Source of the DNA: Salinispora vitiensis
Lineage (GTDB): Bacteria; Actinomycetota; Actinomycetes; Mycobacteriales; Micromonosporaceae
Assembly (NCBI RefSeq): GCF_000378825.1
Contig: NZ_KB900388.1
Span: forward strand, 2,735,818 to 2,799,817
Length of the DNA: 64,000 bases
Direction of reading: 5' to 3'
Shown: piece by piece, positions 7,252 through 53,085 of the stretch
How positions within the stretch are numbered: the first letter of the stretch is position 1
How the letters are laid out: every line of letters begins with the position of its first letter
Notes under the pieces: model-generated
The model's input: only the letters and a program-made list of their open reading frames with translations
The model's database searches: none
Told to the model about the DNA's origin: nothing
Position numbers and translations under genes: made by a program

Positions 7252-11218
<3,967 letters not shown>

Positions 11219-49936: not shown

Positions 49937-50249
49937 GCCAACCCCGCAGTTCATCGCGGAACGCGCCTCGGAACCTCATGCCGGGCCGCTCAGAACGCGA
50001 CACTCCCACCGGGCGACTCGCCGAGCCCGCACCGAAGTGGCGGCGTTGCAAGCGCGGAAAGTCTTGCTGGTTTCAGCGTGCCTGCCGGGCCGGGCCGCGT
50101 CAAGAGCCGGCTACCGCTGGCTGCGACCCACCGCTCCCCGTCGGCGTCGGAGCGCCGGCGCAGCCACGTGGGCAGCGCAGACAGGCCAGGCTCCCACCAA
50201 CCGCGGAACACCCAGCTCGGCCGGGGCAGCTCACGCCACCAACACGGGC
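49937..50249. other. Intergenic region upstream of the rpoB promoter
   Basis: About 310 bases between the rplL terminators and the rpoB promoter. No gene, tRNA or clear motif seen. Confidence 0.6.
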
Positions 50250-50280
50250 GGGCGGCGATCCGCTGACCGGATCACCGCCC
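50250..50280 (-). terminator. Second hairpin downstream of rplL
   Basis: GGGCGGcGATCC pairs with GGATCaCCGCCC (one mismatch), seven-base loop. Tandem with the hairpin at 50289-50326. Confidence 0.65.
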
Positions 50281-50288
50281 GTCGTGCC

Positions 50289-50326
50289 GCAGGGTGCCCC
50301 GGCACACGTACACCGGGACACCCTGC
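50289..50326 (-). terminator. First hairpin downstream of rplL
   Basis: GCAGGGTG(c)CCCGG pairs with CCGGG(a)CACCCTGC, ten-base loop, 16 bases past the rplL stop. With the next hairpin it probably ends the rplJL transcript before rpoB. Confidence 0.75.
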
Positions 50327-50342
50327 CGGGGTTAGCACAAAG

Positions 50343-50729
50343 TCACTTGAGGGTGACCTTGGCGCCCTCGCCCTCGAGCTTGGCCTTGGCCTTGTCGGCG
50401 GTCTCCTTGTTGGCCTTCTCCAGGATCGCCTTCGGAGCGGACTCAACCAGGTCCTTGGCCTCCTTGAGGCCCAGGCCGGTCAGCTCACGCACGACCTTGA
50501 TGACCTGGATCTTCTTGCCGCCGTCGGCCTCGAGGACGACGTCGAACTCGTCCTTCTCCTCCTCGACCGGCGCAGCAGCACCGGCGGCCGGGGCACCAGC
50601 GGCCACGGCGACCGGCGCCGCGGCGGTGACCTCGAAGGTCTCCTCGAACTGCTTCACGAACTCAGAGAGCTCGATCAGCGTCATCTCCTTGAACGCGTCG
50701 AGCAGCTCGTCGGTGCTGAGCTTCGCCAT
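50343..50729 (-). CDS. rplL: 50S ribosomal protein L7/L12
   Basis: 128 residues: N-terminal dimerisation domain ([29 protein letters not shown]), Ala/Pro/Gly hinge, and C-terminal factor-binding domain ([35 protein letters not shown]). Present in several copies on the L10 stalk. 55 bases after rplJ. Confidence 0.98.
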
Positions 50730-50784
50730 ATCTGGCGTCCTTTCTCAAGTGGTGTTGCTAAGAATCGTGTGCACCGGGGCAGCC

Positions 50785-51330
50785 TCAGGCCGCCTCGGCG
50801 CCTTCCTTCTCGCGCTTGTCCTGCAGGGCAGCCGCCAGGCGGGCCGTCTTGGCCATCGGCGCCTGGAACAGCGACGCGGCCTTGCTCAGGTTGCCCTTCA
50901 TGGCACCGGCCAGCTTGGCCAGCAGCACCTCGCGGGACTCCAGGTCGGCGAGCTTCGTGACCTCGGCCGCAGAGATGGCCTTGCCCTCGAAAACGCCGCC
51001 CTTGATGACCAGCTTCGGGTTGGTCTTCGCGAAATCGCGAAGACCCTTGGCCGCCTCGACGACGTCGCCCGAAACAAAAGTCAGCGCGGTAGGACCGGTG
51101 AACAGCTCGTCGAGCCCGGAGATACCCGCGTCCGCCGCGGCACGCTTGGCCAGCGTGTTCTTGGCGATGGTGTAGGTGGTCTCCGTGCCGAGCGAGCGCC
51201 GCAGCTGGGTGAGCTGGGAGACCGTCAGACCACGGTACTCGGTCAGCACGGTCGCACCCGCGTTGCGGAAGCTCTCGGTCAGCTCGACGACGGCCGTGGC
51301 CTTGTCGGCCCGGATCGGCTTGTCCGCCAT
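50785..51330 (-). CDS. rplJ: 50S ribosomal protein L10
   Basis: 181 residues, the stalk base that carries L7/L12 ([37 protein letters not shown]-terminal helix for L12 dimers). ATG preceded by GGAGGG. In other bacteria the L10-L12 complex represses its own operon through the leader. Here the leader is about 265 bases long and contains a terminator and a matching antiterminator arm. Confidence 0.98.
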
Positions 51331-51370
51331 GTCCCTCCTCTCTCGTTACTCCAGGCTGGTCACCGTCATC

Positions 51371-51402
51371 GGCGGTAGCCGACGGCGGTAGCCGACGGCG
51401 GA
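51371..51402. repeat. 13-base direct repeat in the rplJ leader
   Basis: GGCGGTAGCCGAC occurs twice in tandem (51371-51383, 51384-51396), followed by GGCGGA. It lies between the leader terminator and the rplJ ribosome-binding site. Confidence 0.8.
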
Positions 51403-51429
51403 TCCGGAGGAAACACAGCAACGAGAAAA

Positions 51430-51453
51430 GCCCCGGCGCAGGGCGCACGGGGC
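51430..51453 (-). terminator. Intrinsic terminator in the rplJ leader (attenuator)
   Basis: RNA GCCCCGUGCGCCCUGCGCCGGGGC followed directly by UUUUCU: a ten-bp stem with one bulge, three-base loop and a U-tract. One of the few U-tract hairpins in the window, and it lies before, not after, the coding region. Confidence 0.75.
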
Positions 51454-51514
51454 GAAAGGCTGGTGCTGGCACCACAGTCGGCGGACCGTGGGAGACAACC
51501 TGTTTTTCGCTTAC

Positions 51515-51524
51515 CGCCCTGCGC
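51515..51524 (-). promoter_or_regulatory. Antiterminator arm in the rplJ leader
   Basis: Minus strand GCGCAGGGCG, an exact 10-base complement of the inner part of the leader terminator (51445-51436). Pairing would break the terminator stem. Confidence 0.6.
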
Positions 51525-51601
51525 GGGTCGCCCGTCGTCGCGGAACCTTCGACCGTGCCGAGGCACGGTGACCAGCGGTCTCTGGGTGGAACTTCGCGAC
51601 A

Positions 51602-51631
51602 AGAATACGCGATGCCCGCAGGGGCTGCCAC
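51602..51631 (-). promoter_or_regulatory. Candidate rplJL promoter
   Basis: GTGGCA (51631-51626), 18-base spacer, TATTCT (51607-51602). Start predicted near 51595. A perfect 8-bp palindrome (51552-51569) lies early in the leader. Confidence 0.5.
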
Positions 51632-51697
51632 ACGGCCCCCCACCAGCCCTACCGCCCACCACCCGGCCGTCAGCCGTCAGCCGTCAGCCAGAAAGCC

Positions 51698-51731
51698 GAA
51701 CGGGGCCCCACCAGCCGGCAGGGCCCCGTTC
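51698..51731 (-). terminator. rplA terminator
   Basis: 11-bp stem (51698-51708 with 51721-51731), 12-base loop, 14 bases past the rplA stop. It separates the L11 and L10 operons. Confidence 0.8.
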
Positions 51732-51745
51732 GAACGCAGTCGTGC

Positions 51746-52462
51746 TCAGCCCTCGGCGGAGCTCTCCTGCAGGTTCTTCACCGCGTTCGGGTCGACCGGA
51801 ACACCCGGGCCCATCGTGGTGGTGAGGGTGACCTTCCGCAGGTACTTACCCTTGGCCGCGGACGGCTTCACCCGCAGGATCTCGTCGAGGACCGCCGCGT
51901 AGTTCTCCACCAGCTGGCTCTCGGAGAACGAGGCCTTCCCGATGATCAGGTGCAGGTTGGAGTGCTTGTCCACCCGGAAAGCGATCTTACCGCCCTTGAT
52001 GTCCGCAACCGCCTTGGCGACATTCATCGTCACCGTGCCGGTCTTCGGGTTCGGCATCAGACCGCGCGGGCCCAGGATCCGCGCGATCCGACCGATCTTT
52101 GCCATCTGGTCCGGCGTGGCGATCGCCGCGTCGAAGTCGAGCCAGCCGCCCTGGATCCGGGCGACCAGTTCGTCCGTGCCCACCTCGTCGGCGCCGGCGG
52201 CAACGGCCTCCTCGGCCTTCGCGCCGGCGGCGAACACGATCACACGCGCGGTCTTACCAGTGCCGTGCGGCAGGTTGACCGTGCCGCGCACCATCTGGTC
52301 CGCCTTACGCGGGTCGACGCCGAGGCGCATCGCGACCTCGACCGTGGCGTCGAACTTGGTGGAGGTGCTCTCCTTGGCCAGCTTGACGGCCTCGGCGGGG
52401 GTGTACAGCTTCGACCGGTCGATGGCCGCAGCCGCCTTGCGGTAGTTCTTGCTGTGCTGCAT
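51746..52462 (-). CDS. rplA: 50S ribosomal protein L1
   Basis: 238 residues. [29 protein letters not shown] at the start, the RNA-binding [18 protein letters not shown], and [14 protein letters not shown] are diagnostic. L1 forms the mobile stalk that moves deacylated tRNA and in other bacteria represses the rplK-rplA mRNA. 80 bases after rplK. Confidence 0.98.
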
Positions 52463-52542
52463 CTGTGGTTACTCCTGTGGTCTCTGGCGGGCCGCGGTGC
52501 TCGCGAGCCCTCCCACAAACGGGATCGGCGGGTCGGCTCGGG

Positions 52543-52974
52543 TCAGTCGACGACGTTCAGGCCCATCGACCGGGCGGTGCCGGCGATGATCTTCTCGGCC
52601 TGGTCGAGGTCCTTGGCGTTGAGGTCAGCCATCTTCTTCTCGGCGATCTCCCGCAGCTGGGCGCGGCTGACCTGGCCGACCTTCTCCATGTGCGGGACAC
52701 CCGAGCCCTTCGCCACACCAGCGGCCTTGATCAGCAGCCGGGCGGCGGGCGGGGTCTTCAGCACGAAGGTGAACGAGCGGTCCTCGTAGACGCTGATCTC
52801 GGCGGGGACGATGTCGCCCCGCTGGGACTCGGTCTGCGCGTTGTAGGACTTGCAGAACTCCATGATGTTCACACCATGCTGACCCAGCGCGGGGCCAACC
52901 GGCGGCGCCGGGGTGGCCTGGCCCGCCGGCAGCTGAAGCGTGAACGTCTTGACGAGCTTCTTCTTCGGAGGCAT
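52543..52974 (-). CDS. rplK: 50S ribosomal protein L11
   Basis: 143 residues ([36 protein letters not shown]). The proline-rich N-domain loop is the thiostrepton/micrococcin site region, and L11 is required for RelA activation. ATG 52974 has AGGA six bases upstream; in-frame codons further up are in the leader. Confidence 0.98.
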
Positions 52975-53085
52975 GTCACTTCCTGGGACGTGGAACGGAA
53001 ATTCGCACCGCCTGCCGGGCATGCACGGTCAGCATGCCGCGTAGACGGCGACGTTCTAGGGTAGCGCACCCCGACTGCCGGCTTT

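Follow-up and report, generated by a model that had tools for sequence, protein, structure and literature searches.

Synthesis of the stalk proteins L10 and L12 has to keep to a ratio of 1:4 and to match rRNA. For the rplJL operon of B. subtilis, a leader working by anti-antiterminator, antiterminator and terminator has been proven (Yakhnin et al., 2015, PMC4538822; here and below as described in the accessible portion of that paper), and a UAA element is needed by the Firmicutes L10 according to the same source. According to the available part of a review (PMC10931766), L10 leaders in Actinobacteria were described by Fu et al. (2013; NAR 41:3491). No description of an attenuator of this kind in Actinomycetia was found in the literature searched, outside of which most subscription papers lay, and the accessible portions of PMC2965389, PMC8914203, PMC13236596, and PMC2422843 yielded nothing on rplJ. 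The available part of the first of these reports that intrinsic terminator predictions are fewest in high-G+C bacteria (PMC2965389).

The window considered here is a stretch of 64,000 nt of Salinispora vitiensis DNA, and the locus lies on its minus strand. The gene order there is what we take, from the proteins, to be rplK, rplA, rplJ, and rplL. The ORF that is presumably rplJ, a name also given in a preliminary description of this leader, spans 50785–51330 (ribosomal protein L10, 181 aa, ATG at 51330–51328); the next ORF, presumably rplL judging by its protein sequence, spans 50343–50729 (ribosomal protein L7/L12, 128 aa). Searches for L10 detected homologues in 59 of 61 close genomes and in 197 of the 200 family genomes. 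The stop codon of rplA is at 51746, and the gap between it and rplJ consists of a terminator-like hairpin, a −10-like box, and the leader. Directly 3′ of rplA, at about 51732–51697, is a strong hairpin, CGAACGGGGCCC..GGGGCCCCGUUCG, followed by GCUUUCU; rplKA seems to end here, so rplJL would need its own promoter. Since a strict sigma-70 scan found no promoter here, the −10-like TATTCT read by eye at 51602–51607 (TAACCT in many genus members) is a putative box. A start near 51595, 7 nt after it, is predicted, and the resulting predicted leader (51331–51595) fits the 265 nt of the preliminary description; the Shine-Dalgarno (SD) sequence of rplJ, AGGAGG, is read from the sequence at 51334–51339. 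The accessible text of PMC2904383 (citing Blanco et al.) reports that the S. coelicolor rplJL operon has just one start, which precedes rplJ.

Rfam searches of the locus gave weak matches to toxic sRNA and anti-hemB models, which were rejected as reflecting a terminator shape and falling far below cut-off. Between rplK and rplA, at 52540–52465, there is a stretch GUUUGUGGGAGGGCUC which we take to resemble an L1-binding mRNA site; Rfam gave no L1 family for the rplK-rplA region at E up to 10.

The preliminary description proposed a switchable attenuator of the L10 type before rplJ. This reading is essentially right, in that a terminator and an antiterminator are conserved as competing predicted structures and have a candidate L10-type recognition domain upstream, but incomplete, because that domain (51585–51518), which contains the putative anti-antiterminator and is the best supported part, was missed. 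At a probability of roughly 0.75, the leader is an autogenous transcription attenuator of rplJL, with L10(L12)4 as the presumed ligand.

The upstream domain is predicted to consist of a kink-turn-like motif next to a long-range helix, P2, within which lie two hairpins, P3 and P4. The long strand of the motif (51577–51585) begins with the C-stem CC (51585–51584), followed by AGACC (51581–51577), and its short strand is CAGG (51518–51521). The C-stem is nearly invariant and paired in 100% of cells, AGAC occurs in 92 of 94 distinct leaders, and [CU]AGG in all 94 (CAGG in 90). The 5′ strand of P2, CGCUGGUC (51570–51577), which would be the anti-antiterminator, pairs with its 3′ strand GACCCGCG (51522–51529), of which 51527–51522 are common to the antiterminator. 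P3, ACCGUGCC..GGCACGGU (51552–51569), shows both-sided changes in seven of seven pairs, and P4, UCCG/CGGG (51531–51544), in five of five across leaders. The junction CGAAGGU (51545–51551) occupies the position that the UAA element has in known L10 leaders; GAA is found in 90 of the 94 distinct leaders and UAA in two. Upstream of relatives' L10 genes there is a recurring block of ACCnAAGACCGCUGGUC, a hairpin, CGAAGG, a hairpin, CGRCCCGCGCAGG, a variable hairpin, GCCCCGUGCGCCCUGCGCCGGGGC, and a U-rich tail.

Other candidate pairings were rejected. A helix P1 (GUCGCG/CGCGAC) dominates folds started at 51604, but was discarded because it involves bases located at or 5′ of the predicted start and some genus members do not preserve the pairing. 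In a possible GCGGGC/GGCCCGC pairing between the P4 and P2 strands the changes follow P4, and in a CCAG/CUGG hairpin at the 5′ end an A/G change is uncompensated.

Two alignments bear on the proposed structure. The first, A1, comprised 68 leaders, nine from the genus and 59 others (L053–L112 without L054, left out because the motif search matched it twice). Across it, 94.7% of cells are paired and 14 of 21 pairs have both-sided changes, with none of 500 shuffles reaching any of the measures; when the partner is slid by 1–3 columns, pairing falls to 36–44%. RNAalifold, working from the A1 alignment alone, recovered P2, P3, and three P4 pairs, with 13 of 18 pairs backed by double changes. The second alignment, A2, consists of 98 leaders (94 distinct) collected with R1, a covariance model of the sensor domain; all are from the class except L144/L211 (f59) and L199 and L200 (f28). 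Its pairing (96.2% of cells) and covariation score (0.509, against 0.182 shuffled and reached by none of 500 shuffles) have to be read as those of an alignment fitted to the R1 model; in the count of pairs changed on both sides, 14 of 500 shuffles equalled or exceeded A2. The P2 strands hardly vary except at one pair, which in A2 is C-G in 78, U-A in 14, and U-G in two of 94 leaders, unbroken throughout, and in 62 further leaders (families f8 and f28) C-G in 16, U-A in 45, and U-G in one, again never broken. As f8 includes C-G members (L256, L260, L265) and f28 a U-A one (L199/L218, from a single genome), the change arose more than once, in at least two lineages. Among the helices, P2 matters most, since its 3′ strand would double as an antiterminator strand. 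The predicted helices P2, P3, and P4 are established by strong covariation.

When the domain is aligned to RF00557, the Rfam L10_leader family, its AGAC and [CU]AGG strands flank P2 where RF00557 has AGACA..CGAGG; relative to the RF00557 core, ACC-nnAGAC../..GAGG, the short strand here reads GCAGG instead of CGAGG. In the 23S rRNA of this genome, CAUAGACAACCAG..CUGGUCAAGUG occurs at what we take to be helix 42. By pattern, the sensor resembles the L10 site of 23S rRNA, and on this likeness it may bind L10.

The model R1 matches 249 of 296 class genomes (233 of 267 of good quality), leaving 47 of the 296 without a match, and 147 of 151 genomes of family f8; searches over 40 genomes used stricter filters and scored only some candidates per genome. 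Among the matches listed there is one per genome, with one exception: contig C1 of G517 has three equal matches, at 10756, 7710221, and 7710600, possibly an assembly or chromosome-end repeat. Across the phylum, R1 matches 14 of 149 genomes (11 among the 12 class members listed, three outside the class), as well as 14 of 36 in the order of one phylum genome outside the class. The RF00557 model (gathering score 44 bits), a search with which the preliminary description had suggested as a check, gave no match at E up to 10 in window positions 50000–53000, none in 18 loci from other families, and none in the same 296 class genomes. It does match 48 of the 149 genomes across the phylum, none of them among the 12 class members listed, while R1, at E up to 10, recognised none of 20 RF00557 loci. 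Within the samples examined, each model covers a different part of the phylum.

In named genomes, the motif pattern was found in at least 118 stretches, and 77 of 80 among the matches listed agree with R1; this agreement is partly circular, because the pattern holds the sensor's own motifs. L318 (a Clostridia MAG), L324, and L349 have pattern matches without an R1 match and without rplJ downstream, and are taken as chance matches. Named R1 matches include Streptomyces, Mycobacterium, Corynebacterium, Nocardia, Microbacterium, Frankia, and Micromonospora rosaria, the last scoring 87.6 bits to the window's 87.2. Among those listed, 74 of 77 have rplJ within 400 nt, the other three being too short downstream. 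Where R1 alone led to the locus, rplJ follows on the same strand in 74 of 75 cases, and the remaining locus stops at a contig end. By tblastn, rplJ was present in 126 of 186 loci, of which 126 some 52 had been fetched because of rplJ; of the 60 without it, 59 had been trimmed at the rplJ start by the analyst and one is at a contig end. Over all loci tested, the distance from sensor to rplJ is 66–180 nt. The domain is a 5′ leader element of rplJ.

Further downstream, the intrinsic terminator hairpin of the preliminary description is present at 51453–51430 (minus strand) as GCCCCGTGCGCCCTGCGCCGGGGC, followed by TTTTCTCGTT, and all other strings it quoted are likewise in place. The U-tract UUUUCU (51424–51429) comes directly after the hairpin, whose core is found in all 52 genus leaders (the window and L002–L052). 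A hairpin GGUGC-CA-GCACC (GGTGCCAGCACC, 51473–51462), which had been counted as part of the device, did not hold up: it occurs in one of the 52 genus leaders, that of this strain only, and its 2-nt loop as written is sterically too small. The loop of the predicted antiterminator does contain a hairpin, P5 (CACGGUC-CGCC-GACUGUG, 51473–51490), whose motif is present in 51 of the 52; within it, the loop of GGUCCGCCGAC(C/U) is kept in 51 of 52 and the stem, in the next three pairs down, varies compatibly. The P5 loop sequence was not found among the other-family leaders listed. A script taking the best hairpin with at least four T in nine bases, which sometimes picks an unrelated hairpin (L210), found a terminator-like hairpin after the sensor in 174 of 182 non-duplicate leaders and none in the other eight (L109, L150, L110, L193, L181, L206, L144, L200).

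The segment 51524–51515 (GCGCAGGGCG) is the exact reverse complement of 51445–51436, as the preliminary description had noted, and is included in a longer predicted antiterminator 5′ strand, CCCGCGCAGGGCG (51515–51527), with a 3′ strand CGCCCUGCGCCGGG (51432–51445) inside the terminator. The P2 strand 51529–51522, the antiterminator 51527–51515/51445–51432, and the terminator 51453–51430 are thus overlapping and mutually exclusive predicted structures. The exact 10-nt complement is present in 30 of the 52 genus leaders, and several others carry GCGUAGG, corresponding to a G-U pair, which this count leaves aside. In the window, the 5′ segment can form a Watson-Crick run of at most 10 with the terminator, a length reached by 2% of dinucleotide shuffles of the terminator, and the antiterminator duplex energy has a z of −2.4 (p 0.02). 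A 10-nt complementarity is modest for a single sequence in DNA of 67–72% G+C, and alone is weak evidence.

The comparison between families, in which run and energy tests used the first leader of each, goes further. In 43 of 44 families, the native terminator gives a stronger antiterminator duplex than its shuffled versions do (mean z −2.17; p ≤ 0.05 in 27 of 44), and among sensor 21-mers the antiterminator 5′ strand pairs best with the terminator in 34 of 44. The longest Watson-Crick run averages 6.2, against 5.2 shuffled (paired test, p 1.4e-4), and is individually significant in six of 44. Swapping terminators between families hardly weakens the duplex, the native antiterminator being better in only 41 of 70 cases (duplicates L211, L001, L135, L106, and L093 were dropped here, as in the tail/SD test described below and the triple table), and with swapped terminators pairing nearly as well as native ones, little antiterminator covariation is to be seen. 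The covariation between 51515–51524 and 51436–51445 looked for in the preliminary description is accordingly weak: the segment is nearly invariant, with one informative position, and U-A leader rows have the matching U in the terminator in 17 of 62 cases (12 of 17 in A2, 5 of 45 in A3), or 12 of 43 distinct ones. These compensation counts, and the duplex counts derived with them, were drawn from the full set of 160 alignment rows with duplicates left in, 13 of which have no terminator. From the swap and compensation results, the case for the antiterminator rests on conserved complementarity and that for the anti-antiterminator on covariation.

The same results, with the 2% chance level in the single leader, could also mean that the L10 site and terminator are real and the antiterminator a by-product of G+C-rich complementarity, with L10 acting on termination directly. 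This is unlikely, as the complementarity goes beyond shuffles in all but one of the 44 families and is kept despite differing terminator arms in L191 and L199 (runs of 8; p 0.017 and 0.01), that of L199 being weak by energy (z −0.56).

In calculated folds, the window leader has a free energy of −78.0 kcal/mol unconstrained, a structure containing the 10-bp antiterminator, −75.3 with the full antiterminator forced, and −68.1 with P2 and the terminator, so that forcing the latter pair costs about 10 kcal/mol relative to the free fold of the whole leader. The terminator is without weight in the free ensemble. For the sensor alone, P2 is not the thermodynamic minimum, costing 1.8 kcal/mol (−25.6 forced, −27.4 free); in 174 of 187 rows all seven P2 pairs can form, and the mean P2 pairing probability exceeds 0.5 in 49 of 187 (duplicates included). 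Folding from the predicted start, the antiterminator forms once the RNA of its 3′ strand has been made (with a mean probability of 0.99 at 51436). Given these energetics, early protein binding would be a natural way to divert the fold, and we infer that it may do so early in transcription.

The attenuator we envisage has a logic like that of B. subtilis, as the P2 3′ strand would also be the antiterminator 5′ strand. The first ~80 nt of the leader, P2 enclosing P3 and P4 together with the kink-turn, would be the L10(L12)4-binding domain, with the kink-turn mimicking the L10 site of 23S rRNA. When free L10(L12)4 is scarce, all of it being on rRNA, the P2 3′ strand, in the form CCCGCG-CAGGGCG, would pair with CGCCCUGCGC-C-GGG inside the terminator, and this antiterminator, part of the most stable predicted fold, would let polymerase read through. 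With L10(L12)4 in excess, the protein would hold P2 and the kink-turn closed, depriving the antiterminator of its 5′ strand; the terminator at 51453–51430 would then form, and transcription would stop near 51425. The comparison of leaders supports the predicted P2, P3, and P4, the terminator, a conserved antiterminator complementarity, and their overlap; the ligand, termination itself, and the direction of control are what we infer from them. Against an attenuator stand the marginal free energy of P2, GAA in place of UAA, the short U-tract, the 41 of 70 in the swap test, and the 47 of 296 class genomes without an R1 match.

L10(L12)4 might instead bind the conserved domain and, like its E. coli counterpart, repress translation and not transcription. 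The terminator tail UUUUCUCGUU (51429–51420) can pair with AACGAGAGAG (51347–51338) before the rplJ SD, which could help to mask the site; the duplex is calculated at −20.6 kcal/mol in the window and is altered but matching (CUCUUGU/ACAAGAG) in family f3. In swap tests, native tail/SD helices beat swapped ones in 11 of 17 and 10 of 17 cases within the order (p 0.045 and 0.057), but in 13 of 24 outside it (p 0.89) and in 19 and 22 of 37 in other genera of the family (p 0.56 and 0.27); class-wide, in a comparison that lost seven leaders without a recognised SD, the native helix was ahead in 19 of 39 families (p 0.17), which does not go beyond chance. It is supported at best within the order, and since control of translation would give no role to the terminator or to the sensor strand's overlap with it, this explanation is highly improbable. 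That the terminator is unregulated or under general factors (NusA, NusG, Rho), with the domain serving only mRNA stability or folding, would fit the marginal P2 and short U-tract, but is very unlikely for a class-wide covarying three-helix domain with an L10 motif, found before rplJ wherever the locus is long enough and with its P2 overlapping the antiterminator.

A more speculative extension of the attenuator reading, which we consider doubtful, is that the class Actinomycetia has a separate rplJ-leader RNA family, with a three-way junction and GAA, which co-evolved with L10, and that rplJL is controlled at two levels, by attenuation through P2, antiterminator, and terminator, and, in this order, by a tail helix over the ribosome-binding site. 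A sensor of covarying helices with a mapped switch strand makes the proposed mechanism directly testable in high-G+C bacteria, and R1 provides an annotation model for class genomes in which the current Rfam model finds nothing.

Compared with known systems, the leader would, like that of E. coli rplJ, be under autogenous control exerted by L10(L12)4 at a kink-turn site; the E. coli leader acts on translation, and no comparable attenuator is described for it in the accessible parts of the literature covered. With RF00557 it has in common the position before rplJ, the ACC-nnAGAC strand of a putative kink-turn, a hairpin followed by (U/G)AA, and a terminator in the model, and it differs in P4, which is without counterpart in the RF00557 structure line, in GAA for the unpaired UAA, and in that the models do not cross-match. 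The likeness to B. subtilis rplJL (PMC4538822, in its accessible portion) extends to the whole predicted arrangement, an anti-antiterminator with an L10 target and kink-turn, an antiterminator, and an intrinsic terminator, overlapping and placed before rplJL; here there is an extra hairpin, P4, forming a three-way junction, GAA replaces UAA, and ligand and termination are presumed. Judged by its conserved motifs and helices, this leader is a divergent, class-wide variant of the known L10 leader kind, lying outside the current Rfam model.
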